DNA from: a virus
Reading direction: 5' to 3' (one strand)
Virus record (IMG/VR): IMGVR_UViG_3300046450_000634
Coordinates: 1-25,228 of that record
Length of the DNA: 25,228 nt
Part shown: positions 4,139 to 22,748 of the stretch, in pieces
Layout of the letters: each line of letters begins with the position of its first letter
Position numbering within the stretch: the first letter of the stretch is position 1
The notes under the pieces: model-generated
Databases searched by the model: none
Seen by the model: only the letters and a program-made list of their open reading frames with translations
What the model was told of the DNA's origin: nothing
Position numbers and translations under genes: made by a program

Positions 4139-5050
4139 TTAGAACGTGAAGCTTAAACCTGTGCGTAAGGTAGCATCATCTGTAGTTAAATCATAGTCTA
4201 CATTTGTAAAGAATACCGAACTCTTTGCAATTTTAAACTGTGACTCAAGTGTAGCATTACCATCATCAAGAGCAACATCTGTATCCTGATAACCGGCAAG
4301 TACTGTTAGGTTAGTAGAAACATCATATGATCCAGCTAATTCATAACCAACTGCATCATTTGCTTGAGTATCATCATCTAATGCTGTTACACTTGCAAAT
4401 AAGCCAGTTTTGCCTATTTTATGAGCAACACCAAAGCCATAGTAGTCTGAAGAGTTAATTTCGTCTCTTGCGTAAGTTACTCCGACTCCTTTGTAACCAA
4501 CACCTACTTGATAAAGATCTAAATTATGGTTAGCGGCATCATCGGTCATTTGTGTCTGAAACCCTACATCAATGCCGTTGAATGAATTAGTATATTTTAA
4601 ACTATTATTCATATAAAATGAAGTCTTTTGTACACCTTGATTACCAGCTCCGTAAAATACATCTGCTTTATCAGTAAATGTGTCTACTAGACTCATTGTG
4701 CGACCAATAGCTAAGTCACCATATTTGTCATTACCTACACCAATATAACCAAATCGGGTAGTAATGTCGTCTGCTCCGTCTGCACTTGAAAGATCAGCAT
4801 CAAGTGAAATTTCTCCAAATACATAAACAGGCTGTTGTGTCTTAAATTGTAATCCGAGCTTACTACTTGATGATTTGATTTCTGTATCAACGTTTGTAGC
4901 AGTTGAGCTTTCAACATATGCCCGGATTTCTCCATATGTTGTAATGTCTACTCCATCGACTTTAGGGATTACGAGCTTATCAGCTTCCGCGGCCCATGCC
5001 GTAGAGATACCAGCGAACAAAATGATCGCAGTTAAGGGCAATATTTTCAT
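4139..5050 (-). CDS. Outer membrane porin (Gram-negative porin type)
   Basis: A 303-residue protein with a clear Sec signal peptide (MKILPLTAIILFAGISTAWA, cleavage after AWA) and a mature part of alternating beta strands rich in Gly, Asp and aromatic residues. It ends in LRTGLSFTF, with the C-terminal Phe used by the Bam machinery for outer membrane insertion. Early mature sequence TTYGEIRAYVES and later IGVGNDKYGDLAIGRTMSL match the general look of proteobacterial trimeric porins. It would form a diffusion channel in the host outer membrane. Together with the TRAP transporter in this window it could raise uptake of small acids. Its promoter candidate is TATAAGTA at 5102-5095. No terminator is visible after it. 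Confidence 0.85.
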   Translation of the reverse strand: MKILPLTAIILFAGISTAWAAEADKLVIPKVDGVDITTYGEIRAYVESSTATNVDTEIKSSSSKLGLQFKTQQPVYVFGEISLDADLSSADGADDITTRFGYIGVGNDKYGDLAIGRTMSLVDTFTDKADVFYGAGNQGVQKTSFYMNNSLKYTNSFNGIDVGFQTQMTDDAANHNLDLYQVGVGYKGVGVTYARDEINSSDYYGFGVAHKIGKTGLFASVTALDDDTQANDAVGYELAGSYDVSTNLTVLAGYQDTDVALDDGNATLESQFKIAKSSVFFTNVDYDLTTDDATLRTGLSFTF

Positions 5051-7821: not shown

Positions 7822-8880
7822 CTATTTTAGCCATTTTGCAATAGAATTGTCCGGATTGTAAAATAACGCTGAATCAAAATCTTTAAAATTAATACGGTTC
7901 ATATCTGTATCAATTGCACTAGCACTTTGGTGACCAAAATACAATGTAGTTGACTGGTGTTTGATTTTGTAATCATAATAACTTTGATCCTTAGTGTAAT
8001 CAAATATAATATCTTTGGGAACCAATTTTAAAGTTTCTTGAGAAGTTAAATTTGGTTTATGATTTACACTCCAATTTTGAAAATCATAAGAACTAAAGAA
8101 AGTTTGAAGCACATTACCTTTTGCAATCCTAGGCAAGAATTTAACTCCAATCATTTGCCATTTAAAATTAAAATTGTGCCACCAACACCAGTCAAACATA
8201 GTGCTTATAGGTCTAGGTGAAAACTTGGTAGTTTGGTGGTAAATTTCATAGATGCATTTATGAGTGTCTGAATCAGAAAGGCCCATAAACTCAAATACTC
8301 TAACAGTATTTTCATATGAATATGGTTCAAGTAATAAATCACGTTGTTGTCCTCTTAACAAAATATTTGCAAATGGAGAACCAAATAATTGATCAGCATG
8401 TTCAGAATTTACTATAGTTCCAGGTAAAACTCCTGCACTTGCTTTTAACATGAATTCTTCAGTAGCCATTATATTAAACTTACCTAAGATAAATTTATTG
8501 TAAAATAATGCATATTCTCTTACACTATCTTTATTGCATATAATAGTAATATTATCTAGTGGTACGTCTGCTTGTAAAAATGAGACTACAGAACATGTAC
8601 TGTCTATTCCTCCTGACCAAAGTAAATATATTTTATCATTTATATTAACTAACTCTTTGGCCCTATTAACGCAACACTCTTCAAAGGAAATTGCACTAGT
8701 ATTAAAGTTAGGTAATTCATATTCTGGTAGTAGTTTGGTATGATAATAGAAGTCAACAGTTTTAGTACGATCTATCAGAAATGCATTTGAATCATATTTC
8801 CACATATTATCGTATATAATGAGGTCGGCAGGAGAATTATTAGTTATAACCCGTTGGCCCTGATGATATATTAATTGCAT
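7822..8880 (-). CDS. Asparagine-synthetase-like PP-loop enzyme, copy 1
   Basis: A 352-residue protein with the N-type ATP pyrophosphatase PP-loop SGGIDS (89-94) after strand KIYLLW, and a second conserved block SEHADQLFGSP (159-169) that corresponds to the GEGADELFGGY region of asparagine synthetase. It lacks the N-terminal glutaminase domain (no Cys2), so any amine donor must come from elsewhere. A block DWCWWHNFNFKWQ (about 226-238) and the C-terminal LFYNPDNSIAKWL are shared with copy 2 at 9595-10647. Relatives adenylate a carboxylate and transfer it to an amine, as in asparagine, beta-lactam or lasso-peptide synthesis. Its ATG overlaps the stop of the partner gene at 8880 by one base. The substrate is unknown. 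Confidence 0.8.
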   Translation of the reverse strand: MQLIYHQGQRVITNNSPADLIIYDNMWKYDSNAFLIDRTKTVDFYYHTKLLPEYELPNFNTSAISFEECCVNRAKELVNINDKIYLLWSGGIDSTCSVVSFLQADVPLDNITIICNKDSVREYALFYNKFILGKFNIMATEEFMLKASAGVLPGTIVNSEHADQLFGSPFANILLRGQQRDLLLEPYSYENTVRVFEFMGLSDSDTHKCIYEIYHQTTKFSPRPISTMFDWCWWHNFNFKWQMIGVKFLPRIAKGNVLQTFFSSYDFQNWSVNHKPNLTSQETLKLVPKDIIFDYTKDQSYYDYKIKHQSTTLYFGHQSASAIDTDMNRINFKDFDSALFYNPDNSIAKWLK

Positions 8881-9602
8881 TACATTCCTGATCGTAATTT
8901 AAATTCTGCTAATGCTATTGTTTCTTGCATAAGACTTTGGTCGCTAAAATCTAATGAGTTTACATGTGATATAAACCATTTCCAATACGCATGTAAACGC
9001 ATAATTGTAATATTTGTAGAACTTACCACCATTTTACATTCTTGGTATGCTTGTTTAACTGGAAGGCCGGCTGAAATTGCCCAGGCTTCTAAACCAGGTG
9101 TATAATAATTGTTCTCAGGAATACATTTGTCAATTTCTGTAGTCATATAAGGAATAAACACATCATCAACAGTACTATGTACTACCCTGCCAGCATATCG
9201 TTCTAATTTTGTTTCAATTGAAGCTAATACATGCTGACGTCTATTTGCTAATTGTCTAGATACATTAAATTGTTCTGTAACATTATCCATTTTTTCTATA
9301 TCAAAAATAATTTCTTGCTCAGGAACTACTTTTGCTACGCTTAATTCTGCTGACGGAATAGCATATCCTTTTTCTGAACCAGATGTTGTTAATATATAAT
9401 TATTAGTTGAGCTTCTGTTATAATTTCTTATAATTTCATTGTGCTTTCCAGGAAGTTGTGCTACCATTAAAGACGAATTTGGTATGCCTTCTGCTAATGC
9501 GTTAATAACTGCTGGGCTAACTGAAACTGTTAGTATTCCAAATGTTTGTTGATCTACTAACATTGAGGATATATTTGCTTTTTTTGAAAATGTATCAAGC
9601 AT
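8880..9602 (-). CDS. Partner protein of PP-loop enzyme, copy 1
   Basis: A 240-residue protein of no family I know. It is homologous to the 215-residue protein at 10644-11291: both start ML.T, have VD..T.GILT near residues 17-25, IPN..LM about 20 residues later, an E.MD motif near the middle, and a C-terminal block FIPYMTTEIDKC followed by YTPGLEAWAISAGLPVKQAY (copy 2: FLPFIKRELEKC and YTDIIKDWAKIRGVDIKTAF). The N-terminal half looks beta-rich and the C-terminal half helical. It overlaps the PP-loop gene upstream by 8 bases with AAGGAGATT as ribosome site, and the one downstream by one base. It may present or bind the PP-loop substrate. Confidence 0.75.
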   Translation of the reverse strand: MLDTFSKKANISSMLVDQQTFGILTVSVSPAVINALAEGIPNSSLMVAQLPGKHNEIIRNYNRSSTNNYILTTSGSEKGYAIPSAELSVAKVVPEQEIIFDIEKMDNVTEQFNVSRQLANRRQHVLASIETKLERYAGRVVHSTVDDVFIPYMTTEIDKCIPENNYYTPGLEAWAISAGLPVKQAYQECKMVVSSTNITIMRLHAYWKWFISHVNSLDFSDQSLMQETIALAEFKLRSGM

Positions 9603-10647
9603 TAATTAATCTCCTTAAAGTATTATCTGCATTGTAGTAATCTATTAAATTTAGATCTCTTACAGGAATTCTATCCCATTTCTCGGTTAAACCTGCAGGT
9701 GAAGATAGGCTGTAATATAATGTAGATGAAGCAAACTTCTCTTTAGTTTTCCAATAGTTTCCATCTAATGTATAATCTAATATAATCTCTTTAAATTCTG
9801 ATTTTAAGTTTAAAACATTACCTGTTTGCTGTATGCTAGTATTTTGAAAATCATTACTAGAGTAAAAAGTAATAAGTTTAGTTGGATCTGCCATTCTAAC
9901 TGCTAATTTCATAGCTATTGTTTGCCATTTAAAATTAAATCCGTGCCACCAACACAGATCCCACATAGTCTTAATAGGCCTTGGACTTTTTTCAATAGTC
10001 ATATTGTAGATATTAATTAATATATCAATATGATATATTGGTACTCCTGCACTTAGTAAGAATTTCTCAAAATTTTCATCATTATAAGGAAGCCCTAACA
10101 TTGTTCTTCCTAGTTTCTTAGCAACCAAGTCTGAAATTGGTGATCCTACTAGCTGATCAGCATGTTCAGCTGATATTAACAATCCGTTAAATAAATTAGA
10201 CTGACCTACTAATAGCATTAATTCCTCTGTTGCTAATATTTGATAGGAAGGTAATATATTGGTTTTATAAAACCGAGGATACTCTTTAACAGAATCTTGA
10301 TTCAGTACAACTACTATTTGATCATTAGGTGCATGTTTCATAAAAGAAATAAGCATTAACGTACTATCAATGCCGCCGCTCCACATTACATATAATTTTT
10401 CTCCAGTCTTAACAAGTTCTTTAACCCTGTTGTCTGCACACTCTTGCCAAGATAAAGGTGTTGTTGTCGTTGTTAGCATTGGAAATATATTGTTTTCTGA
10501 AAACGGAAAAGATATTGTATCTGTTCTATCTACTAAGAAGGCATCTGCATCAATGTTAAACAAAGAACGAAATAACGTAATATCTTTATAATCATCATAT
10601 ATGTTAGAGTGTTTTAATTCAGTACTAAAGACATAATTTAATTTCAT
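9595..10647 (-). CDS. Asparagine-synthetase-like PP-loop enzyme, copy 2
   Basis: A 350-residue paralog of the enzyme at 7822-8880. It has SGGIDS (90-95) after KLYVMW, EHADQLVGSP in place of the asparagine-synthetase GADELFGG region, SPRPIKTMWDLCWWHGFNFK in the C-terminal half and a final YYNADNTLRRLI. Both copies share the N-terminal layout F-L-V/I-DRT (about 36-42) before the PP-loop. As in copy 1 there is no glutaminase domain. The two differ over most other positions, so the duplication is old or each copy was taken up separately and they may act on different substrates. The start is coupled to the upstream stop by ATGA. Confidence 0.8.
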   Translation of the reverse strand: MKLNYVFSTELKHSNIYDDYKDITLFRSLFNIDADAFLVDRTDTISFPFSENNIFPMLTTTTTPLSWQECADNRVKELVKTGEKLYVMWSGGIDSTLMLISFMKHAPNDQIVVVLNQDSVKEYPRFYKTNILPSYQILATEELMLLVGQSNLFNGLLISAEHADQLVGSPISDLVAKKLGRTMLGLPYNDENFEKFLLSAGVPIYHIDILINIYNMTIEKSPRPIKTMWDLCWWHGFNFKWQTIAMKLAVRMADPTKLITFYSSNDFQNTSIQQTGNVLNLKSEFKEIILDYTLDGNYWKTKEKFASSTLYYSLSSPAGLTEKWDRIPVRDLNLIDYYNADNTLRRLINA

Positions 10648-11291
10648 AAATGCACCTTGTTAGTCCAGGTGCTGTGTGCTTCTCTTATTGTAGACAATTC
10701 TTCCTTTACCTCAGTAGCTAACATACCAAATGCAGTTTTTATATCAACACCTCGTATTTTAGCCCAATCTTTTATAATATCAGTATATTCATCATTTTTA
10801 TAATCACATTTCTCAAGTTCTCTTTTTATAAAAGGTAAAAATATAGCATCTCCCATAAAACGTTTATCTTGGGCACTATCGGCTATTAGTTTTGTTTCAT
10901 TAATTCTATATTCGTATCTTAATTTAAATGCAAAATGCCGTGCTTCTATCCATTCTGGAGTAATGTCGTCTAGGTCCATTTCTTCTATACCATATATTCC
11001 TGGACCTTTAGTTGTTTTTACTATTTTTCCAAGGTTTGCAGTAGATGACGGCATTAGGCTGTTATGTGCTTTTACTAAAATAAAATTTGCATCTTCATTA
11101 AATTTTTCATGCATTCCTATAAGATTTAATATTTCGGCATTAGTTGATTCAATTATCATTAATTCTGCATTAGGTATAGTATAACAAATTGCATTTGATA
11201 AACTTACTGAATTACATAGAGTTAAAATTCCGTTGGTTACCGAATCTACTACTAGAAATTTATTATTCTTTAATGCATATGTTGATAGCAT
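10644..11291 (-). CDS. Partner protein of PP-loop enzyme, copy 2
   Basis: A 215-residue homolog of the 240-residue protein at 8880-9602, first gene of the four-gene operon. It shares VDSVTNGILTL (about 16-26), IPNAELMIIE, EEMDLDDIT and the C-terminal FLPFIKRELEKC block. The middle insert differs in length. There is no signal peptide. ATG at 11291 has no ribosome site and lies only 6 bases after a TATATT -10-like sequence, so the message could be leaderless or the start could be regulated unusually. The stop overlaps the next start as ATGA. Function unknown; tight pairing with the PP-loop gene suggests a direct partner. Confidence 0.75.
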   Translation of the reverse strand: MLSTYALKNNKFLVVDSVTNGILTLCNSVSLSNAICYTIPNAELMIIESTNAEILNLIGMHEKFNEDANFILVKAHNSLMPSSTANLGKIVKTTKGPGIYGIEEMDLDDITPEWIEARHFAFKLRYEYRINETKLIADSAQDKRFMGDAIFLPFIKRELEKCDYKNDEYTDIIKDWAKIRGVDIKTAFGMLATEVKEELSTIREAHSTWTNKVHL

Positions 11292-11793: not shown

Positions 11794-12564
11794 TTAATTA
11801 TCGTTTAGATTAACCCTAAATGCTATTCTAACAGGCATCCCGTCGGAATCCGGTGCGTTCTTAAAACTTATATGATTCTGATCATGTCTATATACAATTA
11901 TTCTACCAGGTTTGTGGCCAACAATCTGTTCCGGGAATCCTATGGGATAACCACCTTTAGGATGAACTTCGCCGTCGTCTTGTTTGTCGCTATAAAAAAC
12001 ATATTCGGCGCCCCAACTTGGCAACCATTTTGAATTAGTAACAAACAATACAGTTGCATAATTATTTTTATCAATATAACCAGGACCACTATCTTTATGG
12101 ATATATCCAGGATTGTGATTTCTTATCTGTTGGACTCTTTTTGAACCTGATGACTTTGCATTCATATAACATGTCCAACCTTTAATGGTATTATCATACT
12201 CGTATTTGTCAAAGAAATTCTTACCGTCACTATAAGAGGTTCGTATACTTTTAAGTCCGCCAATGTCTTCAGGTATGCCATCTATATTTGCTTTGCCTCC
12301 TAGTACTTTATCGTTTATATCTTGAAACAAATTATAAATTAATGGATGCCTAGTTTTCACCATATCAGTACTATTGCCAAACGGGTGTCGTATTATGCCT
12401 CGTTCTCCTTCTCCTAATTCAGTGTTTAAAGGATCTAGTGTAGCATCATAATCGTTTAAATGACGTAATGCACTATACCAAGTATGATTACATGCATATT
12501 CATGAACTTCATTTTGCATTTCCTTACTAATTAATCCATCATACACATTAATAACTTTTTCCAT
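11794..12564 (-). CDS. Fe(II)/2-oxoglutarate-dependent oxygenase
   Basis: A 256-residue protein with a complete double-stranded beta-helix oxygenase signature: GYIHKDSG with His156 and Asp158 as Fe ligands, WGAEYVFYSD (184-193) where related enzymes have WGGEL, the third ligand His231 in DQNHISFKN, and VRIAFRVNLN with Arg246 or Arg250 to bind 2-oxoglutarate. It resembles prolyl-hydroxylase-like enzymes found in many T4-like marine phages. The target may be protein, nucleic acid or metabolite. AAGGAGATAC before ATG is a good ribosome site. It follows the tmRNA gene with no visible terminator, so read-through from the tmRNA promoter is possible. Confidence 0.8.
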   Translation of the reverse strand: MEKVINVYDGLISKEMQNEVHEYACNHTWYSALRHLNDYDATLDPLNTELGEGERGIIRHPFGNSTDMVKTRHPLIYNLFQDINDKVLGGKANIDGIPEDIGGLKSIRTSYSDGKNFFDKYEYDNTIKGWTCYMNAKSSGSKRVQQIRNHNPGYIHKDSGPGYIDKNNYATVLFVTNSKWLPSWGAEYVFYSDKQDDGEVHPKGGYPIGFPEQIVGHKPGRIIVYRHDQNHISFKNAPDSDGMPVRIAFRVNLNDN

Positions 12565-12609
12565 ATTTTTGTATCTCCTTAATTAATACATAGTAATTAA
12601 ATGGCACTT

Positions 12610-12861
12610 CTGTTTCTAGGCAGTTCCCGCCCAGAGCAATTATGCCGCTAGGGCAAAATCCTCAGATGCAAAATTATCGTTTGCAATTATCGTTTTGTTC
12701 GCGTTAACCGAGCTTACATCCGGACAACTCCACATTCCTACTACTTGCCAGTCGATCCTATTTCGCCCCCATCATAAGCACTCTCAGTAAAAGTGTTTAT
12801 GGTGGAGGCGCTGGGTACTGCCCCCAGGTCCTGTGCAACGTTTGTTATGCTTCAACATTGT
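12610..12861 (-). ncRNA. ssrA: Circularly permuted two-piece tmRNA
   Basis: Read on the minus strand, the acceptor piece comes first: T-arm CTGGG-GGCAGTA-CCCAG (12827-12811), acceptor strand CGCCTCC, then A and CCA (12803-12800). A 29-base spacer with a small hairpin follows, then the 5' acceptor strand GGGGGCG (12770-12764), which pairs with CGCCTCC and gives the G3-U70 alanine identity pair. Next come a D-like region, a pseudoknot-like region and the tag frame at 12684-12640: ANDNFASEDFALAA then TAA. A hairpin CTGGGC/GCCTAG (about 12633-12615) ends it. Part of the 5' coding region (CTGGCAAGT) can pair with ACGTTGCACAG of the acceptor piece to form P2. The order is that of alphaproteobacterial tmRNA. 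Outer ends are approximate. Confidence 0.93.
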
Positions 12862-12865
12862 ATAC

Positions 12866-12896
12866 TATTTATAGCACTATACTGCCTTAGAGTCAA
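12866..12896 (-). promoter_or_regulatory. ssrA: Promoter of the tmRNA, sigma70-type and late-type combined
   Basis: TTGACT (12896-12891), a 17-base spacer and TATAAA (12873-12868). The -10 is also part of an exact TATAAATA (12873-12866), so the same site could serve host sigma70 early and the phage late sigma later. The start would be near 12861. Confidence 0.75.
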
Positions 12897-12982: not shown

Positions 12983-13921
12983 TTACTTAAGATCTTGGAT
13001 CTTTTTAACTGTTCCCATTAGCTCAGGAAACATGTCATATACATGTGCTGTAGCTTCTTTGAAACGAGCTCTTTCTTCTTGTGACATTCTACGAACTTCA
13101 ATGCCATCGCTTTCAGCTTTAGCTTGTGTAAGTGCAACGTCTTCAATACTAATTACACGTTCGTAATTAGCGGCTACTTTAGCGGCGTCTGCAACAATAC
13201 CTTGTAGTTCTTCACCTAAATCTGCCCAAAAGTCCTGGTTGATTAAGATGCTTGTTAGGAACAATGAGTGTTCTGTGTGGTTAATAACCTTAGAAACTTT
13301 GTCCTGTCCTAGAGCATAGATACGTGGGTAAGTAGACTCACCTACTTGAATATCTTTGTCTTGGATTGCGTCTGTCATTTCTTCAAGTTCCATAGGAACT
13401 ACGTCTGCACCAACTGCTTTGAAAGTCTCAATAGCAACAGGTGAGAATGAAGTACGAAGTTTTAGACCTCTTAGATCTTCAATTCTTGAAACTTCTTCTT
13501 GTCCTGGAATAATTCTAAATCCACCGGAATATGTAAAGGCAAGACCTTTAACTCCAGCTGACTGAGAAAGTCCTGCTAGTAGTGATTCACCAATTGGGCC
13601 TTCGAACACTCTAGTTGCGTGGTCATGAGACTCAAATAGGAATGGCATATCTAATGCACGGAATTCGTGATCATATTCGCCAATATCTACTGTGTAAGTT
13701 TGTGACATTTCAATGTCACCTCTGTTAATCATATCAACAAGTTCGTGCTTAGTAACAACGATACCGTTATTATACTTTGCAGAATACTCATTCATTGTCA
13801 TAACTTCAATATCTAAAGCTCCGTTTGCTCTTGCATTAACTTCAGATGCAAAAACTTTTGCGGCTCTTAAAAACAATTCGATAGGCTCGTGTGCGAGTAC
13901 CCATTTAATATTCTTTGTCAT
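12983..13921 (-). CDS. DctP-like TRAP solute-binding protein without signal peptide
   Basis: A 312-residue protein with the DctP fold: LAHEPIELFLRAAKVFASEV as first strand and helix, a central ALDMPFLFESHDHATRVFEG block, FTYSGGFRIIPG, LRGLKLRTSFSPVAIETFKA (the conserved Arg region that binds the ligand carboxylate) and a helical C-terminus. Unlike normal DctP it starts directly at strand 1 (MTKNIKWVLAHE) with no signal peptide, so it should stay in the cytoplasm. The start at 13921 is supported by AAAAAGGAGT upstream; the longer frame to 14020 has no ribosome site and still no signal peptide. It stands between two terminators, with a late box CATAAATA at 14031-14024. A similar protein lies at 17597-18703. 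The role inside the cell is unknown. Confidence 0.82.
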   Translation of the reverse strand: MTKNIKWVLAHEPIELFLRAAKVFASEVNARANGALDIEVMTMNEYSAKYNNGIVVTKHELVDMINRGDIEMSQTYTVDIGEYDHEFRALDMPFLFESHDHATRVFEGPIGESLLAGLSQSAGVKGLAFTYSGGFRIIPGQEEVSRIEDLRGLKLRTSFSPVAIETFKAVGADVVPMELEEMTDAIQDKDIQVGESTYPRIYALGQDKVSKVINHTEHSLFLTSILINQDFWADLGEELQGIVADAAKVAANYERVISIEDVALTQAKAESDGIEVRRMSQEERARFKEATAHVYDMFPELMGTVKKIQDLK

Positions 13922-14023
13922 TATAGACTCCTTTTTCTTAAGAAAAACAATTCTGCTACTGCAAAATTGTAGAAAGTTTTCAGCTTTTTCCGATAAGGTA
14001 TTAGACTGAATTCTATCCAAGTG

Positions 14024-14031
14024 TATTTATG
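14024..14031 (-). promoter_or_regulatory. Late-type promoter box CATAAATA
   Basis: It lies about 100 bases before the start at 13921 and just after the terminator at 14062-14092, so it can make a separate transcript for the DctP-like gene with a leader of nearly 100 bases. Confidence 0.5.
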
Positions 14032-14061
14032 CATTTATGACAAATATAGAAATAATAGCCA

Positions 14062-14092
14062 AAAAAATAGGATGCATAAGCACCCTATTTTT
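14062..14092 (-). terminator. Terminator after the TRAP operon
   Basis: On the minus strand AAAAATAGGGTGC pairs with GCATCCTATTTTT (one G-T) around TTAT, followed by more T. It lies about 20 bases after the stop of DctP at 14113. Confidence 0.85.
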
Positions 14093-14112
14093 AACGTTAT
14101 ATGCTTTTAAAC

Positions 14113-15207
14113 TTACTTTTTCTTCCAGTAGTAGTCTGCGGCATAGTTATAAGGCGTAAATGCTACGTTCTTAAATGGAACTACTTTCCTTGCCCATGCT
14201 TTCTGAGAAGCAAGTACTTTTGCAAAATAAGGATCCTTAGCGGCATTTTCTGCTAACATGATATCAATAGTTTCTAACTCAGCAACCAGAATATCTGCTG
14301 GAGTTTTCATAACTCTAATTCCATGCTCTTTAATCATTCTAGCAAGTGCTTGACCATTCTTTGCTTGAATGTCAGTTAACCACCATAGATATGATTCATA
14401 AGAGGCAGAACGAATTGCTGTCTGCTGTTGCTTACTCATTGAACGCCATACTTTACCATTAAGTAGTAAATCACCAGTATTTGAGTGCTCATGCAATGAA
14501 TTCAAGTAGTAGTATTTCCATACTGTAGGAAATCCAAGACGTTCGTCTTCGAGACCGCCAACAAATTCAGCACAATTAATAACTCCTTTTGCGGCCGCTG
14601 CCATGATCTCACCACCTGGCATACCGATAGTCTGCATACCCATTCTAGCATATAATTCTACGTTGGCGCCAGTTTGACGACATTTAAAATTCTTAAGATC
14701 TGCTAGATTCTTAATTGGTCGATGGAACCAACCTAATGGCTGATTCTGTGCTGGCATAACTGGAAAAGGAACAACATCTAATTTAAGTTCATTCTTATAG
14801 AAGTCGTTATACAATTCAAGTCCACCACCGTGGAACATCCAACCTAGGAAGTCGATCCCGTCCATACCGTAAGGTCCACCTAAAGGACTATTAAATAGTG
14901 CAAGAGTCTTTGACTTTCCGACCCAGTAATAAGATTGCGTCCATGCACCATCTACTGCACCTGACGCTGTAGCATCTAGCACCTTAAAAGAAGGAACTAA
15001 TGCACCAGACGGTCTGATTTTCATATCAATTTTTCCGTCTGTTAAAATTTTAACTCTGTCTGCGAGAAAGTTTGCTTGCTCGTTAAAAGTTGAGATTGCT
15101 CCAAAACTAGATGCAATCTGTAGTTCTTTGGCATTAACTGTTGCTACTGAAGCAAACATGCCAAATGACATTGCGGTAGCTAATACCGCTCCGATGAAAC
15201 GTTTCAT
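14113..15207 (-). CDS. dctP: TRAP transporter solute-binding protein, TakP-like
   Basis: A 364-residue periplasmic binding protein. The start at 15207 gives a standard signal peptide (MKRFIGAVLATAMSFGMFAS..VNA, cleavage near residue 26) and has GGAGAATAAAAAT upstream; the frame is open to 15279 but that would add 24 residues before the signal. The mature part matches the TakP group known for 2-oxoacid uptake: GGGLELYNDFY, LGWFHRPIKNLADLKNFKCR with the ligand-binding Arg, MPGGEIMAAAAKGVINCAEF and the WKYYYLNSLHEHS segment. It would capture a monocarboxylate or oxoacid and deliver it to DctQM. It is the third gene of the TRAP operon, 19 bases after DctM. The exact substrate is inferred only from family likeness. 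Confidence 0.92.
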   Translation of the reverse strand: MKRFIGAVLATAMSFGMFASVATVNAKELQIASSFGAISTFNEQANFLADRVKILTDGKIDMKIRPSGALVPSFKVLDATASGAVDGAWTQSYYWVGKSKTLALFNSPLGGPYGMDGIDFLGWMFHGGGLELYNDFYKNELKLDVVPFPVMPAQNQPLGWFHRPIKNLADLKNFKCRQTGANVELYARMGMQTIGMPGGEIMAAAAKGVINCAEFVGGLEDERLGFPTVWKYYYLNSLHEHSNTGDLLLNGKVWRSMSKQQQTAIRSASYESYLWWLTDIQAKNGQALARMIKEHGIRVMKTPADILVAELETIDIMLAENAAKDPYFAKVLASQKAWARKVVPFKNVAFTPYNYAADYYWKKK

Positions 15208-15226
15208 ATTTTTATTCTCCAAAATA

Positions 15227-16621
15227 TTATTGTCCAAGGACACCCAAAAAGTCAACTTCTTGGCCTTTGACATCATCACCTAGTACTTCTTGTACTACGT
15301 TTTTTCTTTGCTCTGCTAGGTAATTAGGTAACCACGTTGCAAGGCCAGGCGTAATAAACAATATTACTACACAAATAACCTGAATATACATAAACGGCAT
15401 CATTGCTTTGAATATTAATTTAAGGTCCCACGAAGGCACCACCTGTTTTAGATAGTATCCAGTTAAAGCCACTGGAGGTGTTAGATATGCTGTTTGTAAA
15501 ATAACACCCAAGGCGGCCGCAAACCAAATTAGATCAACTCCAGTATCAATTAATACTGGTAAGAATATTGGTAAGAACACTAGTACTACCACTGGCCACT
15601 CAAAGGGCCAGCCTAAAATATGACATAACACTAATATAGCTCCAACTACTGCCCATCCGGGTATGGGCAAAGAAGTTAACACTGATACAATGATTTTGTC
15701 ACCACCCAAGGAAGCAAATACAGCACCAAAGATTGTTGATGTAATTGCTAATAACATTACCACAGCCGAAGTATTGGTTGTTTTTAATAATGCTTCTTGA
15801 ATATTTGTTAAAGTTAATTTTCTGTTAATGGCGGCTAAACATAAGGCGCCAAACGCACCAAACGCACCAGCTTCTGTGCTAGTTGCTAGTCCAAATAACA
15901 TTGATCCTAATGTAATAAGAATCAATGATGCCAATGGTACAACATGCCATAACAATAACATAATTAACTTAAAATCTATTTCTACTCTTTCTTCTAGAGG
16001 TACCGTAGGTGCTACCCCTGGTTTTGTTTTTATAAGGAATACAACGTATACTAGATACATAAATGCAATTAGTAATCCTGGACCTATTGCGGCCGCATAC
16101 ACATCAATAATATTAAGATTCATTGTGGGCGCCATTACAATAAGCGGAATGGATGGAGGAATCATAATAAGAGATCCACCTCCTGCAATTACTCCTGCTG
16201 ATAGTTTAGCATCATACCCTTGTTTAATCATACTTGGAGCGGCCATAATGCCCAATAACGTTACTGATGCTCCGACTACTCCTGTTGCTAAACTGATCAA
16301 TACTGCAATACAGATAACAACAATGTATAAGTTGCCTGGAACACCAGACAATACCTTCTTTAAACTCTCAAATAAATTCTCTACCAGTCCGGCTCGTTCA
16401 GCAACGTAACCCATAAGGATAAACATAGGAATACTCATTAGCACTTCGTCTGAAAGTCCTCCTAATAGATTGAGATATGTAAGATCAAAAACACTTAATC
16501 CTAATCCCATCAATCCAAAAATTAATGCTAGAAATGTTAGTGTAAAACTAACTGGAACTCCAACAAAGATGCCAGCAATCATTGTAAATAACATTGTCAT
16601 TGCTAGCCATTCATTACTCAT
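15227..16621 (-). CDS. dctM: TRAP transporter large membrane subunit
   Basis: A 464-residue, very hydrophobic protein with about 12 membrane segments, the normal size for DctM. Typical features are the GVPVSFTLTFLALIFGLMGL start, GGGSLIMIPPSIPLIVMAPT in the middle, the STEAGAFGAFGALCLAAINR loop and AYLTPPVALTGYYLKQVVPS near the end. It forms the sodium-driven channel subunit with DctQ in the inner membrane. It overlaps DctQ by 8 bases; AGAAGGA about 10 bases upstream serves as ribosome site. The gene is intact with no frameshift, so a working transporter is plausible. Several Ala pairs are coded GCGGCC or GCCGC rather than with GCA or GCT. Confidence 0.93.
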   Translation of the reverse strand: MSNEWLAMTMLFTMIAGIFVGVPVSFTLTFLALIFGLMGLGLSVFDLTYLNLLGGLSDEVLMSIPMFILMGYVAERAGLVENLFESLKKVLSGVPGNLYIVVICIAVLISLATGVVGASVTLLGIMAAPSMIKQGYDAKLSAGVIAGGGSLIMIPPSIPLIVMAPTMNLNIIDVYAAAIGPGLLIAFMYLVYVVFLIKTKPGVAPTVPLEERVEIDFKLIMLLLWHVVPLASLILITLGSMLFGLATSTEAGAFGAFGALCLAAINRKLTLTNIQEALLKTTNTSAVVMLLAITSTIFGAVFASLGGDKIIVSVLTSLPIPGWAVVGAILVLCHILGWPFEWPVVVLVFLPIFLPVLIDTGVDLIWFAAALGVILQTAYLTPPVALTGYYLKQVVPSWDLKLIFKAMMPFMYIQVICVVILFITPGLATWLPNYLAEQRKNVVQEVLGDDVKGQEVDFLGVLGQ

Positions 16622-17111
16622 TATTGAAAATCCTTCTATAACATTTAATCATCTGACTCAAGGCTTGTATCATTAGAAGTACTAAGCCAAGTGTAATGCC
16701 AATCTTCATTGGCCATATAACAAGCTGAGCCATTGTTTCAGAACTACGTTCGTTCATTTCAATAGCGGCATATGTGTCGTTAAAACTAATGTATGTGATA
16801 AGTGCAAAGGAAGGGAAGAATAATAAGATATAACTTATAAAGTCAATAATTGCTTTTGTACGATCTTTATAGTTGCTCCAGAATAAATCTGTTCTAATAT
16901 GTGCTTCTTTGCCTAGAGAATAACTGCAACCAAACATAATAAGCATACCGTATAGTTGCCAGGTTGTATCGACTACAAAATCATTACGAATGTCAAAGTA
17001 ATACCTTCCTAGTACGTTAGTTACTACGAAAAGTACCATTAGTAATGCAAACCACGAATAGAATTTCGCAAATCTGCTTACAATATTGTCAATAAATTGT
17101 GTTACTTCCAT
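16614..17111 (-). CDS. dctQ: TRAP transporter small membrane subunit
   Basis: A 165-residue protein with four membrane segments (about residues 15-35, 47-65, 88-108 and 130-152), the usual DctQ layout. Signature pieces are FVVTNVLGRYYFDIRNDFVV and LGKEAHIRTDLFWSNY, the latter being the conserved HIRTDLF type motif between segments 2 and 3. It pairs with DctM to form the membrane part of the transporter. It is first in the operon. The leader of over 100 bases from the late box at 17222-17215 contains two hairpins; the ribosome site is a weak AAGAG, so translation may be tuned. Confidence 0.9.
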   Translation of the reverse strand: MEVTQFIDNIVSRFAKFYSWFALLMVLFVVTNVLGRYYFDIRNDFVVDTTWQLYGMLIMFGCSYSLGKEAHIRTDLFWSNYKDRTKAIIDFISYILLFFPSFALITYISFNDTYAAIEMNERSSETMAQLVIWPMKIGITLGLVLLMIQALSQMIKCYRRIFNNE

Positions 17112-17131
17112 CGACCAACTCTTTTAACCGT

Positions 17132-17187
17132 TTTGCTTTCTATAAGCAAAGTTTGTTATTATGTTTGATTGTTCAAAACAATCAAAC
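17132..17187 (-). promoter_or_regulatory. Two hairpins in the TRAP operon leader
   Basis: First a perfect 11-base stem GTTTGATTGTT/AACAATCAAAC with a 3-base loop (17187-17163), then a perfect 7-base stem TTTGCTT/AAGCAAA (17150-17132). Neither has a T tract behind it. They may stabilise the message or control dctQ translation. Confidence 0.5.
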
Positions 17188-17214
17188 TGATACATCATAA
17201 CATTAGTTATATGC

Positions 17215-17222
17215 TATTTATA
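17215..17222 (-). promoter_or_regulatory. Late-type promoter box TATAAATA for the TRAP operon
   Basis: Exact TATAAATA about 100 bases before the dctQ ATG at 17111 and 26 bases after the stop of the cold-shock gene. Confidence 0.55.
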
Positions 17223-17248
17223 CTGGCTATTAGCCATTGTAAATAAAT

Positions 17249-17470
17249 TTACTCTGATTCTATAAGAGTTATGTTGGCGGCTTGACGACCTTTATCACCT
17301 TGAACTACTTCAAATGATACTGCTTGGCCTTCTTTAAGAGATTTAAAACCATCAGAGTTGATTGCTGAATAATGAGCGAAAACGTCATCTGATCCATCGT
17401 CAGGTTTAATAAAACCCCAACCCTTTGCGTCTTGAAACCATTTTACTTTACCTGTTACTTGTTCTGCCAT
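17249..17470 (-). CDS. Cold-shock domain RNA/DNA-binding protein
   Basis: A 73-residue CspA-family protein from the ATG at 17470, preceded by GGAAGAAG; the frame is open 15 residues further but that part does not fit the family. RNP1 is visible as KGWGFI (16-21) and RNP2 as DVFAHYSAI (29-37), with the usual GKVKWF start and a [12 protein letters not shown] end. Trp replaces the more usual Phe in RNP1, as in some alphaproteobacterial members. It binds single-stranded RNA or DNA and could act as RNA chaperone or antiterminator during infection. It has its own GATAAATA late box at 17529-17522 and lies directly before the TRAP operon. Confidence 0.93.
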
Positions 17471-17521
17471 GTGTGTACTTCTTCCATTAATGTTGTAATG
17501 TGTTGTTATACACATTAACTT

Positions 17522-17529
17522 TATTTATC
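17522..17529 (-). promoter_or_regulatory. Late-type promoter box GATAAATA
   Basis: It lies 51 bases before the cold-shock ATG and about 10 bases after the structured terminator of the upstream gene. Confidence 0.5.
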
Positions 17530-17538
17530 AAACTAATA

Positions 17539-17583
17539 GGCTAGACAGGGTATTAGAATCATTCTAAATTGCCCCATCTAGCC
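17539..17583 (-). terminator. Nested-stem terminator or RNA end after the 368-residue DctP-like gene
   Basis: The outer arms GGCTAGA/TCTAGCC (7 pairs) enclose a GGGG/CCC stretch and an inner perfect stem TTAGAAT-G-ATTCTAA. It lies 13 bases after the stop at 17597. There is no long T tract, so it could be a processing-resistant 3' end rather than a classic terminator. Confidence 0.6.
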
Positions 17584-17596
17584 CTGTTTTTATTAC

Positions 17597-18703
17597 CTAC
17601 GCCGCTTGTATTTGCTCAACGAGGTTTTTACGTTTGTTATAAACATCAACTGACTGCTCACCTTGATGAACAAAGTTTGCATCTTCAGCTTCTTCTCTAG
17701 TTGCGAATGTTGTTGAATAAAACTGTTCATATGATCTATGAGCATTATTAGCAAGTATATCAGTTTCTTCTTGAGTAATTTCTCTTATCTGAACTCCATT
17801 TGCAACTGCGTCTCTCTCATATTTTTCACAGTCTTCAAGTGACCATTTTCTTTCAATTTTAGACACTGCATAGGCTGATTCTTTAAAAGCTTCTTGTTGT
17901 TCTAATGTTAACTTATCAAATAATTTTGATCCTGCTAAAATACTAGTTAAGAACATAGAATGATTTGTCTTCAAAATATGTGTTCCTTTGAATCTTAGAT
18001 AAGTTGTCTCAATAGCAGATTTAACACCTTTAGCAAAATCTTTCATTTCCTGAACATCTAATGCTTTCCTTGGAAACGCCTTAGCTTTAATATCTGGACT
18101 ATTAAACATTGCAGTTGTAGTTGGAACAGTTTGCATTGTTGTATCTTTTAATTCAAGAACACTTGCAATGTCATGATTAGAACCAACAATTCTAAAACCA
18201 CCAGAGTAAGTAAATCCTAAAGATTTAACACCAGTTGCAGTTTCTAGCATTCCACGAAGGTTTTCACCAATTGAACCATCTAACGCCCTGGTTACATGAT
18301 CATGATCCTTAAACAAGAAAGGAAGATCTAATGTTTCAAAAGGCTTGAATAGGAATGATCCTATTACTGTAGCTTGTGTCTGACTAATATCAATGCGGCC
18401 ATCTTTTATTGCGGTAAACAGTGATTTCCACTTTTTGTCGATTTCTTGTACGGCGACTGGTGTAAAAGTGTTATCTGAATCTTTGCTTTCCCAATCTTTT
18501 TCTAAACCTTCCATTGACGCAGGTTTGTTATTTAATTCCGGAATTTCGTTGTATTTTGCAATATATGTTTTCATATCTAGAATTTCAATGTCAAATTCTC
18601 CAGGACATCTTTTTTCTAACTCATCACGGAATGCTTTCGCAGTACGGACAAATAGATATTGTGGCTGGTGTGCAATGAGCCACTTTAATTTAATAGGTTC
18701 CAT
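17597..18703 (-). CDS. DctP-like TRAP solute-binding protein without signal peptide, longer form
   Basis: A 368-residue protein related to the 312-residue one at 12983-13921. Shared blocks are IKLKWLIAHQPQYLFVRTAK at the start, TLDLPFLFKDHDHVTRALDG, SLGFTYSGGFRIVGSNHDIA and HSMFLTSILAGSKLFDKLTL. It also begins directly at strand 1 and has no signal peptide. Against the shorter copy it has an insert of about 40 charged residues after strand 2 (around residues 53-92, LNNKPASMEGLEKDWESKDS) and a different ligand-arginine region (LKDTTMQTVPTT), so the carboxylate-binding Arg may be lost. It lies upstream of the TRAP operon, with AATAAATG at 18749-18742. It could be a cytoplasmic sensor or a repurposed structural protein; this is not known. 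Confidence 0.78.
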   Translation of the reverse strand: MEPIKLKWLIAHQPQYLFVRTAKAFRDELEKRCPGEFDIEILDMKTYIAKYNEIPELNNKPASMEGLEKDWESKDSDNTFTPVAVQEIDKKWKSLFTAIKDGRIDISQTQATVIGSFLFKPFETLDLPFLFKDHDHVTRALDGSIGENLRGMLETATGVKSLGFTYSGGFRIVGSNHDIASVLELKDTTMQTVPTTTAMFNSPDIKAKAFPRKALDVQEMKDFAKGVKSAIETTYLRFKGTHILKTNHSMFLTSILAGSKLFDKLTLEQQEAFKESAYAVSKIERKWSLEDCEKYERDAVANGVQIREITQEETDILANNAHRSYEQFYSTTFATREEAEDANFVHQGEQSVDVYNKRKNLVEQIQAA

Positions 18704-19155: not shown

Positions 19156-21018
19156 TTAAGTTATTTTTATTAAACCGTAAATACTTCCATCTTCATTGCT
19201 GTATGTTAGGTAATCAGGGAACGTATCATCTACTTCAATAAGCATATTTTCACCGTTTATTAAGTTAGCAATAGCACGTTTCCAGGTCTTAATAAGGATA
19301 GGAGTTCCTCCTGTTAGGCTATCGTATACTGTTGAACCGTCTTCTACCCATATCTCTCCTGGTTCGTCTGGTAACGGACTTTGAATTAAATTACTTTTAA
19401 TTAATCTACCTTCAGCATCAATTATCTTGTTTATATCATTTGGATCTGGGATAAAATCAGGAATAAATGCCTGTGCCCATGTTAAAAAATCTTCATTACG
19501 TCCATTAGCTTCATCTAAGAACTCAGAGAATTCAAAACGAACCAGCCCATTTGACCACCTTTTAGTTATGTCTGGTACTCTATTACTGTTACTGTCTAAT
19601 TTGGCTTCGTATATGAAAAATTCCTGTCCAGGCGGTAAATTATACAAAATTCTGCTTCGTACGGCTGTTAAACCGTTATCTTTATAGCCATAATTGCTAA
19701 TTTCCAAACTATTGACATTTGGGTTACTTGGTGGCAAACTTATTAGGTGTGTTTTACCTCTAAAAATTTCTATTTCAGGATTTAAAGATAATGCTGGAGT
19801 TAGTACTTTGCAATCAAACTCATCAAGTACCAATGTTTCTTCTGTAACTCCGGTAACCGCCCAACCAACCCTGTTTTGAGCTGGTGCATCAATCCATAAT
19901 AGATTATAACTGGTATCTGTTTGAGTTAGATCTGCATCTGTTATGTCAGGTAACCCGGCACTTTCAATATCACCTGTAATTGCTGTGGTTACTTGACCTG
20001 TAACCCTGCCACAATAATCATACACATCTTCTGTTTGACCTACAAACGGATCATCATTATTTAAAGCATCTAATGCTAATGCATATACTTCTGGACCTAA
20101 TGTCCTAGCCCATAAATTCTTGTCACTGTTAATTGGATAACTTGCACTGTTAGCAACGTTTGCAACTAACGTCTGTGCTTGCTTTGTAGCATCAGTTAGG
20201 TTTGGTGTTTTAGCAGGAGGAAAGGAGCTTGCCGCTAGTTCAAACTCTGGCCCACTAGTTGATGTTAATCCAGCAACTGCGGCAATATCTGCATCTGATG
20301 GTCTTGGACCTATTGTTATAGCAGGAGCACCAGCAACAACCGGGGCACCTGTTAATAAATTATGCTTATGTCTAAAGTCAGGAAATAATTCCTTTGCCCT
20401 TGCTTGTTTAATACTTGTAGCAATTCCACCAATCTCATTTTTAAATCCAGAAGTTAGACTTGCTGGAATTGATGTACCAGCTGATAATGCATTCTGTGAT
20501 GCTTTCCTAATATTATCAAGTATACTACCTGGGTTAAAAGATCCAGTATTGATTTTCCCACTAGCATCAATACAGATTTTAGGTTTTAGCAATGGTCCAA
20601 ATGCACTTAGTACACCTTGTAAGTTGTTAAAAACATTGTCAGTAACCTGATCTAAAATGTCTCCGTTAATATTTGGAATTTTAATAGGAACTGGACATAG
20701 TCCTCCTAAACTCAACAAATAACGTACTTCTCCTAATGCATTATTAATCCTATCTGTAATGTCAGATACTCCAAGGTGATCGTTAAATGCTTTAACTTCA
20801 TCTTGCAGTAATCTTAATTCGTCTTTAATATCATATAGATTTGCATATCCAGCATCTTCTAGCATTTCATTAATGTTTGCTTCAATGCATATCAAGTTTC
20901 CTTTTAAAAGGTTACCAAGGCCGCCAAATAGTACTGCACAAATAATATCTTTAATAGACTTATTAAGTATGCCGCCTGTTTGCACTTTAATTCCTGGTAT
21001 TACTGGGATAGAAACCAT
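19156..21018 (-). CDS. Putative virion structural protein next to PAAR
   Basis: A 620-residue protein. The N-terminal quarter has hydrophobic and helical segments (IPGIKVQTGGILNKSIKDII, then a coiled-coil-like stretch DIKDELRLLQDEVKAFNDHL around residues 62-81). The middle (about 215-300) is Ala/Pro/Ser-rich and low in charge, like a linker, and the C-terminal half is beta-rich and acidic. No enzymatic motif is visible. It starts one base after the stop of the PAAR gene, so it is co-translated with a tail-tip protein and is probably a baseplate or tail-spike component of T4-like phages. The late genes around it agree with that. The family is not recognised. Confidence 0.7.
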   Translation of the reverse strand: MVSIPVIPGIKVQTGGILNKSIKDIICAVLFGGLGNLLKGNLICIEANINEMLEDAGYANLYDIKDELRLLQDEVKAFNDHLGVSDITDRINNALGEVRYLLSLGGLCPVPIKIPNINGDILDQVTDNVFNNLQGVLSAFGPLLKPKICIDASGKINTGSFNPGSILDNIRKASQNALSAGTSIPASLTSGFKNEIGGIATSIKQARAKELFPDFRHKHNLLTGAPVVAGAPAITIGPRPSDADIAAVAGLTSTSGPEFELAASSFPPAKTPNLTDATKQAQTLVANVANSASYPINSDKNLWARTLGPEVYALALDALNNDDPFVGQTEDVYDYCGRVTGQVTTAITGDIESAGLPDITDADLTQTDTSYNLLWIDAPAQNRVGWAVTGVTEETLVLDEFDCKVLTPALSLNPEIEIFRGKTHLISLPPSNPNVNSLEISNYGYKDNGLTAVRSRILYNLPPGQEFFIYEAKLDSNSNRVPDITKRWSNGLVRFEFSEFLDEANGRNEDFLTWAQAFIPDFIPDPNDINKIIDAEGRLIKSNLIQSPLPDEPGEIWVEDGSTVYDSLTGGTPILIKTWKRAIANLINGENMLIEVDDTFPDYLTYSNEDGSIYGLIKIT

Positions 21019-21019
21019 A

Positions 21020-21304
21020 TCAGCTACCTACAAACACGTTAGGAGAACCCGATGATGTACTTGGCTCACAGTGAGGTGGTATTGGACAAATTTTATCAGG
21101 ATTTGCAGAGTCACCATTTTCAACAATTAATTCATTTTCTACATAAACATTTTTTGTGCTTGCAATAATATTGCCGGCGCCGTGATTATTTGGATCCTTA
21201 TCAACACTTGCTAATAAGTTATTAACAAACACTGTCGAATTACCAGCAACTACTGTTGCCGCACCGCATATCCTTGAATCAGTATCTCTGTGAACTTCTG
21301 TCAT
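21020..21304 (-). CDS. PAAR-repeat tail-tip protein
   Basis: A 94-residue protein with the look of phage PAAR proteins: a chain of short beta strands with Val/Asn/Gly patterns (VVAGNSTVFVNNLLASVDKD, then KNVYVENELIVENGDSAN), the His in NNHGAGN and a late PPHCEPSTSSGSPNVFVG, where His78 and Cys79 are likely Zn ligands. PAAR proteins sharpen the spike at the tip of the contractile tail (T4 gp5.4-like) and help pierce the outer membrane. It follows the Sm-like gene after 11 bases, and its ATG has no ribosome site, so translation is probably coupled to the upstream gene or leaderless. Confidence 0.85.
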   Translation of the reverse strand: MTEVHRDTDSRICGAATVVAGNSTVFVNNLLASVDKDPNNHGAGNIIASTKNVYVENELIVENGDSANPDKICPIPPHCEPSTSSGSPNVFVGS

Positions 21305-21317: not shown

Positions 21318-21642
21318 AAACTATTACCCCTGGGGAAGGCGGTGCTTGTATAATTCCTGACATTGCTGAAGTATATTGAGTTGCTAATGGCTTATCTGTA
21401 TCTGCAATCATAACAACTAAATTCCTATTCAATTCAATATCTCGAGTTGCATCAGGTGATGCTGTTAAGAAAAAAGGCATTAATGCCGGGGCACCATTTG
21501 GCCCTGTTGACAATGAAACTGGTCTATCAATAATTAATACATCACTTCTTGCTTCACACCAACTAGCAATAAGCTCTTCGCCGTTACTTAATTTAATAGA
21601 AACAATGTCTCCTTTTGTTCTCGCCTTTGATGATATTATCAT
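21316..21642 (-). CDS. Small protein with Sm-like N-terminus
   Basis: A 108-residue protein between nrdB and the PAAR gene; ATG overlaps the stop of nrdB (ATGA). The first 40 residues, KGDIVSIKLSNGEELIASWC and following strand VLIIDRPVSLS, resemble the five-strand Sm/Hfq barrel start (VxVxLxNGxxxxG). The rest contains PFFLTASPDATRDIELNRNL and a Pro-rich end. It could be a small RNA-binding protein or a virion part; proteins of this type lie beside PAAR genes in several T4-like marine phages as far as I recall. No firm function. Confidence 0.65.
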   Translation of the reverse strand: MIISSKARTKGDIVSIKLSNGEELIASWCEARSDVLIIDRPVSLSTGPNGAPALMPFFLTASPDATRDIELNRNLVVMIADTDKPLATQYTSAMSGIIQAPPSPGVIV

Positions 21643-22748
21643 AATTTAAATCCTTTAAAACTATCCTCTTTTACGTCTTGCTTAATGCCACCAATAACAT
21701 AACTCTCAATCTCTGTTTCTTGAGGTGCATTTTGTACACCTTTATTTGAAAGCCAATGTGATGTCCAAGGTAATGGATTATCATTAGGACTTTGAGCATA
21801 TCTTGTTGCTAATCCTAAACTTTTAAGACGCTTGTTTGCAATATGCTCAATAAACATATGCAACAATTTCTCATTTAATCCAACAATAGAACCATTTGTA
21901 AACAAATAATCAGCCCATTCTTTTTCTTCTTCTACTACCTTGTCATATATAAGACCAATTTCTTCTTCGCACTCTTTTGCAATAGAAACCATATCTGGGT
22001 CATCACCTTTAATCCAATTCTTGATAATATGTGTGCTAATTGCTAAATGCTGGCTTTCATCACGAGCAATTAAACTAACAATCTTAGCAGAGCCTTCCAT
22101 TGTTTTTAACTCGCCAAATGCAAACGTACATGCAAAGGAAACATAAAAACGCAAACCTTCTAACGCATTAACATTTACCATTGCTAGGTAAAGTTTCTTT
22201 TTAAGTTCTCTAAGATCTCCTTTACCAGTAGCAGTATAATATTGAGCATCATTAATAAAATCATCATATGCTCTTGTTACACTTTCTGCCCTAGCAACAA
22301 TCTTCTCATCATCAAGAATAGTGTTAAACACATCACTAGGATCAGGGTAAATATTTTTAATAATATGTGTGTAACTACGACTATGAATTGTTTCAAAGAA
22401 ATCCCAAGTAATTAAACATGCTTCTAACTCCGGTAAAGTACAATAAGGCACAAATGCAAGAGCTGGTCCGCGTCCTTGAACACTGTCAAGTAATGTTTGA
22501 TATTTTAAATTACTTGTAAAAATAAACTTTTGAGAATCTGTAAAATTTAAATAATCACTTCGATCCTTTTGCAAACTAACTTCTTCTGGTCTCCAAAAAT
22601 ATCCAAGTTGTGTTTGTGTTAACTTATCAAATACCGGATAACGAAATTCATCAAATCGTTGCGAGCTTAATTGTTCTCCAAAGAACATAGGTTGTTTTGT
22701 ATAATCAATTTTGTTTTTGTTGAATACAGTTGTTTTTAAATGTTGCAT
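21639..22748 (-). CDS. nrdB: Ribonucleotide reductase class Ia, beta subunit
   Basis: A 369-residue R2 protein. All iron ligands and the radical tyrosine are present: Asp88 in LLDSVQG, Glu119, His122 and Tyr126 in FFETIHSRSYTHI, Glu in NALEGLRFYVSF, and the Glu and His of ARDESQHLAI. It therefore should form the di-iron tyrosyl radical that starts nucleotide reduction in NrdA. Length equals that of the E. coli protein (376) and similarity to the E. coli type is very clear around the SNLKYQTLLDSVQG segment. It overlaps the end of nrdA by 13 bases and the next gene by 4. It supplies dNTPs for phage DNA synthesis. Confidence 0.98.
   Translation of the reverse strand: MQHLKTTVFNKNKIDYTKQPMFFGEQLSSQRFDEFRYPVFDKLTQTQLGYFWRPEEVSLQKDRSDYLNFTDSQKFIFTSNLKYQTLLDSVQGRGPALAFVPYCTLPELEACLITWDFFETIHSRSYTHIIKNIYPDPSDVFNTILDDEKIVARAESVTRAYDDFINDAQYYTATGKGDLRELKKKLYLAMVNVNALEGLRFYVSFACTFAFGELKTMEGSAKIVSLIARDESQHLAISTHIIKNWIKGDDPDMVSIAKECEEEIGLIYDKVVEEEKEWADYLFTNGSIVGLNEKLLHMFIEHIANKRLKSLGLATRYAQSPNDNPLPWTSHWLSNKGVQNAPQETEIESYVIGGIKQDVKEDSFKGFKL

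Follow-up and report, generated by a model that had tools for sequence, protein, structure and literature searches.

Phage tmRNAs have been reported from 402 of 18,146 genomes, with 53 unique two-piece forms, 50 of which are marine or aquatic (PMC9004378). Two-piece tmRNAs are documented for the marine phages Melnitz, a phage of Methylophilales (MZ577097.1), and Mosig, a phage of Pelagibacter (MT647606.1); the Melnitz tmRNA was placed with SAR11-type ones and is of the alpha type in a phage whose host is not an alphaproteobacterium, and its promoter is listed only as an early promoter (PMC9004378). The gene described here lies in a record of IMG/VR that is 25,228 bases long (the window) and is likewise a permuted tmRNA of a T4-like marine phage. 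With Melnitz it shares the alpha type and a hybrid promoter, which we read in Melnitz as TTGACA-N17-TATAAATA, whereas the region upstream of the Mosig gene lacks the TATAAATA box. Both phages have other tags (that of Melnitz reads ANDNYVPVDYALAA). Melnitz further differs from the window in possessing a 54-aa ATG frame in its spacer, unannotated in its record, where the window spacer is minimal, and in the glutamine riboswitch and late-transcription coactivator gene that follow its tmRNA, in contrast to the TRAP-transporter neighbours of the window gene.

All elements of the gene are on the minus strand, which the earlier note had left unstated, and the complete gene spans 12896-12599. ARAGORN predicts a tmRNA of the permuted type (tmRNA*) at 12549-12895 on this strand, with the tag ANDNFASEDFALAA. 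The covariance models that the earlier note had proposed as a check match over their full lengths and above the gathering thresholds of Rfam, RF01849 alpha_tmRNA at 12900-12599 (minus strand, model 1-355, 121 bits, E 7e-33, cut-off 50 bits) and RF04321 tmRNA_permuted at 12862-12640 (minus strand, model 1-213, 123.9 bits, E 4e-24, cut-off 47 bits). The acceptor piece precedes the coding piece, as the earlier note had it. It occupies 12862-12800, its 5' end being an estimate from the covariance model (RF04321 start at 12862) and the promoter spacing, and comprises the T arm, the 3' acceptor strand CGCCTCC (12810-12804) and the encoded ACCA (12803-12800, with the CCA at 12802-12800). An intervening spacer of 28-29 nt (12799-12771, from sequence reading and the fold) leads to the coding piece, which starts with the 5' acceptor strand GGGGGCG (12770-12764) and ends at approximately 12602, the RF01849 match extending to 12599. 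Within it, ARAGORN and our own reading place the tag frame at 12684-12640, where ANDNFASEDFALAA, starting with ANDN and ending with AA, is followed by TAA.

The acceptor stem GGGGGCG/CGCCTCC is paired at seven of seven positions and contains the G3-U70 pair, in agreement with the first reading of this DNA. Among 253 related sequences that we read, 252 keep the stem and G3-U70, and substitutions within the stem occur as paired changes, e.g., GGGGGTG/CACCTCC or GGGGGAG/CTCCTCC. The spacer holds no ORF and folds into a hairpin continuous with the acceptor stem, so that the flanking strands and the hairpin together constitute one long fold (-24.8 kcal/mol, z -7.15). Bacterial alpha tmRNAs (RF01849; Caulobacter and relatives) have the same gene order and acceptor stem, and likewise a short spacer, an encoded CCA and an ANDN... 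tag, but two of these score about 250-312 bits (251 and 312) against 121 in the phage, and we interpret the far lower score as a reduction of some helices. A low score could also mark a decayed, non-functional copy. However, stem, CCA, tag frame, hairpin and promoter are all intact, and the identical gene occurs in two larger records and in close copies in several more, which makes decay extremely unlikely.

A terminator scan found no intrinsic terminator directly 3' of the tmRNA, so that read-through may occur into the downstream gene at 12564-11794 (minus strand). This gene has a Shine-Dalgarno sequence AAGGAG at 12580-12575 and encodes a protein of 256 aa from a family without assignment; by eye, the protein shows an HxD...H pattern similar to that of 2OG-Fe(II) oxygenases. 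The gene upstream of the tmRNA (12983-14020, minus strand) encodes a TRAP solute-binding protein, DctP (Pfam PF03480, E 1.6e-54).

The contig belongs to a phage, a T4-like large marine myovirus. This disposes of the alternative, raised in the earlier note, of a piece of bacterial chromosome, as related larger records carry both the same gene and a T4-type capsid gene. A near-identical record of 116 kb (IMGVR_UViG_3300046532_001566, G002) encodes proteins identical to those of the window, a second record of 244 kb (IMGVR_UViG_3300017786_003484, G001) encodes proteins 80-96% similar to them, and each encodes a tmRNA as well as Gp23, the major capsid protein of T4 type (E ~1e-98). The NrdB protein of the window (21639-22748, minus strand) is closest to those of cyanophages (66% identity) and of Pelagibacter phage Mosig (65%).

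Several further features of the window deserve mention. A TRAP transporter set at 12983-18703 comprises DctQ, DctM and three DctP solute-binding proteins. Relatives of DctM at 63-100% identity are found in 24 viral contigs; the nearest bacterial DctM is just 46-47% identical, and the TRAP genes are therefore uninformative about the host. A second match to RF01849 in the 244-kb record, at the DctM gene (111237-111401), reaches 17.9 bits, below the cut-off, and is taken as chance. Two tandem pairs of similar genes are located at 7822-8880, 8880-9602, 9595-10647 and 10644-11291; in each pair, the larger protein carries the PP-loop motif SGGIDST, and Pfam and PHROG scans of three of these proteins gave no match. 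A gene for a Gram-negative porin (PF13609, E 1e-20) is present at 4139-5050. Finally, a 620-aa protein beside a PAAR-like protein (19156-21304) has 51 viral relatives and no match in the annotated phages searched; in this phage group it probably serves as a virion protein.

The promoter elements are as the earlier note described them, a -35 element TTGACT at 12896-12891 and TATAAATA at 12873-12866, both on the minus strand and separated by 17 nt (equivalent to TTGAC-N18-TATAAATA). We read TATAAATA as a sigma-70-like -10 element combined with a T4-type late box, and TTGAC is kept at the same spacing in relatives. A generic sigma-70 scan did not list the tmRNA site of the window, which we attribute to the -10 hexamer TATAAA ending in A and not in T; for the same lack of a final T, early sigma-70 activity of the promoter is uncertain. 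Because such a scan cannot tell the tmRNA promoter from background, conservation was used instead. We compared 69 non-redundant viral tmRNAs whose upstream sequence is long enough, collected with a core probe and a tag probe, with 38 bacterial alpha tmRNAs chosen for similarity to the window and from small genomes. Of the viral genes, 60 have the TATAAATA box and 45 the full hybrid (TTGAC, then 16-19 nt, then TATAAATA); of the bacterial ones, none has either. Given how both sets were drawn, these proportions are not population values. Resampling of sequences under a Markov model predicts 0.025 full hybrids per set by chance. The spacing is nearly invariant, 18 nt after TTGAC in 44 of the 45 hybrids. 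The bacterial genes have CTATATTA-like -10 boxes instead, with boxes of the TATATT or TATAAT type in 28 of the 38.

Other hybrid sites in these loci belong to tmRNAs missed by ARAGORN, to gp32 genes and to one other gene. The gp32 single-strand-binding genes (PHROG 224, E ~1e-115) stand behind TTGAC-N18-TATAAATA at six loci (L003, L007, L028, L044, L059 and L115). T4-type phages need gp32 during replication and late in infection, and the occurrence of the hybrid at these genes fits a promoter used throughout infection. Expression of the tmRNA throughout infection from this conserved promoter is plausible. At the Gp23 loci of the nearest phages (L267 and L268) no exact TATAAATA was found on either strand, so that the box is only a candidate late signal in this phage group. 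As far as the searched papers show, the conserved hybrid promoter goes beyond published accounts.

The earlier note had regarded a two-piece tmRNA of the alphaproteobacterial form in a phage as unusual. This does not agree with the 53 forms already published (PMC9004378), nor with our searches, in which a 21-base core probe of the tmRNA matched at least 120 IMG/VR stretches. Among annotated phage records only the Melnitz isolates, Mosig and Rhodobacter phage RcSimone-Hastad were matched; the tmRNA-like match in the latter (L322) is unannotated and lies around 32156-32323 of MW677525.1, between genes for a HIRAN-domain protein and a topoisomerase. The expectation that the gene points to the host lineage likewise had to be given up, since Melnitz combines an alpha-type tmRNA with a host outside the alphaproteobacteria and, in our sample, phage and bacterial tmRNAs fall into separate groups. 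The best match in 385 alphaproteobacterial genomes is just 70% identical. The proposed comparison of tags led to no host either: a degenerate search for the tag pattern ANDNFASEDFA found 25 viral stretches and nothing in 84,980 bacterial and archaeal genomes.

In a tree built from the DNA of 103 viral and 39 bacterial tmRNAs (142 rows, of which some viral ones may be bacterial fragments in IMG/VR) two label changes suffice, compared with 34 in shuffles. The window groups with the viral loci L002, L006 and L012 (98%), followed by L008/L013. Such a pattern bears on the question of whether the phage merely carries a recently captured host ssrA gene, acquired e.g. by imprecise excision at an ssrA attachment site, as a passenger with no selected role. 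The ssrA gene is a common integration site, and captures of this kind have been discussed for Melnitz (PMC9004378). Yet the phage tmRNAs stand apart from the 39 bacterial ones in the tree, the same tag recurs in the 25 viral stretches and in none of the genomes searched, a phage-type hybrid takes the place of bacterial promoters, and full pairing of the stem is kept across wide divergence. We therefore disfavour a recent capture and regard it as very unlikely. The tree separation and the intact acceptor stem with its paired substitutions suggest a maintained phage gene, and we interpret the phage tmRNAs as a long-lived viral lineage and not as stray host copies. This separate lineage appears to be undescribed in the papers searched.

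The gene probably encodes a two-piece tmRNA that is functional and belongs to the phage itself, a large T4-like myovirus of the sea; it would be expressed from a dual-read promoter and serve ribosome rescue. Generally, tmRNA arises from a precursor by removal of a spacer, its two pieces remain paired, and it is charged with alanine via G3-U70; it enters stalled ribosomes in dependence on SmpB and adds a tag that directs degradation by ClpXP. From these principles we infer the timing of transcription, the processing, the charging, the use of SmpB and the benefit of the phage RNA. Early in infection, host RNA polymerase with sigma-70 would read TTGACT and the extended -10 TGC-TATAAA, and later a T4-type late sigma of the phage would read TATAAATA of the same promoter. 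In the precursor, the spacer hairpin would keep the acceptor strands together until host enzymes remove the spacer, RNase P by cleavage at G12770 and 3' trimming up to the encoded CCA, and the acceptor and coding pieces would then be joined by base pairing. The host alanyl-tRNA synthetase would recognise G3-U70. No SmpB was found in five such phage records, which may be incomplete, although the same search detected it in 10 of 14 control genomes; this suggests that host SmpB is needed. With it, the tmRNA would free ribosomes that have stalled on broken mRNAs of host and phage, and would append ANDNFASEDFALAA to the stalled peptides as a degradation tag of the ClpXP type. Non-stop mRNAs arise when T4-type phages degrade the mRNA of their host early in infection, and a rescue RNA made early and late offers the simplest benefit: ribosome recycling would continue while the phage destroys host mRNA and transcription of host ssrA falls.

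Alternatively, the RNA might interfere with its host counterpart, competing with host tmRNA and attaching another tag, so as to send selected host proteins to degradation or to alter the handling of phage products. The absence of the tag ANDNFASEDFA from all sampled bacterial genomes would be in line with this, the CDS-less tmRNA of phage DS6A is reported to inhibit E. coli tmRNA (PMC11915505), and selective tagging has likewise been proposed (PMC9004378). Against this reading, the tag ends in ALAA as ordinary alphaproteobacterial tags do, one bacterial tag (L271, ANDNVASQDFALAA) differs little from it, and tagging targets stalled ribosomes and not chosen proteins. We consider such retagging unlikely and retain ribosome rescue as the preferred function.

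Relatives of the window gene provide insight into a possible second use of the locus. Spacers of the bacterial alpha tmRNAs that we read measure 2-70 nt, with one of 332 nt, and those of viral tmRNAs 2 to 265 nt. An ATG frame covers at least 80% of the spacer in 20 of the 42 non-redundant viral spacers of 95 nt or more, compared with a mean of 1.33 and a maximum of 5 under dinucleotide shuffling. Such frames are found at L054, L048, L040, L038, L062, L039, L085, L008/L013/L014, L133, L321 (Melnitz; shuffle p 0.013) and others; they fall into several unrelated protein families that recur, many with a Shine-Dalgarno sequence just 3' of the CCA. Family A (38-44 aa, hydrophobic, ...WSICAD...) and family B (35-36 aa, ...ICINNYS...) have pN/pS ratios of 0.33 and 0.32, pooled across all pairs and uncorrected for kinship, and both are interpreted as being under purifying selection. 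A PHROGs search assigned the spacer proteins to no credible family.

Members of both families are likewise found outside tmRNAs. Family A has 275 relatives in IMG/VR; among the best 80 of these (L324-L403), 71 adjoin a tmRNA coding piece, both flanks being recognised in 65, and nine are free-standing. The 72 loci of family B (L404-L475) are divided into 48 at a tmRNA and 24 free-standing between ordinary genes. A short acidic frame (M..xGDSDEEPS...) overlaps and precedes family A, in tmRNAs as well as in free-standing copies. That the same families occur both lodged in tmRNAs and on their own suggests real protein genes in the discarded part of the tmRNA, and we lean slightly towards the view that tmRNA spacers of marine T4-like phages hold nested small genes that are translated. 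The only spacer contents named in PMC11915505 are one tRNA-Ala and one repeat. Our search of the PMC literature, whose partial coverage makes absence a weak argument, found no paper on spacer genes, which so far appear undescribed in the papers searched.

The window itself is an empty-slot member without a spacer gene. Its closest relatives have spacers of 52 nt (L012) and of 198 nt (L006, L016, L019, L022 and L263, the last being G001:115897-116367), compared with the 28-29 nt of the window. The 198-nt spacer contains a start-less frame (...CRIFYIVKGHL...NECYIYEEGFEESY...) resembling small genes upstream of other phage tmRNAs (L008, L012), and looks like a decayed gene. We propose to read the spacer as a slot in which small phage genes come and go, occupied by several unrelated families of which at least two have free-standing copies, and in many members one hybrid early/late promoter would drive both the two-piece tmRNA and the nested gene. 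Where the stop codon of a nested frame is the TAG within GGGGGCGAAATAG of the tmRNA, one may speculate that processing removes it, by which the mRNA would become a substrate of its own tmRNA in a feedback.

The window gene adds one further phage tmRNA to the two-piece forms already known in ocean phages. A viral tmRNA lineage with a phage-style promoter suggests that abundant ocean viruses supply ribosome rescue themselves. Should the genes nested in the spacers be translated, they would represent a means, so far unreported, of fitting a protein gene into the part of a structural RNA that is thrown away, and Melnitz, being in culture with its host Methylophilales H5P1, makes such a gene directly testable.
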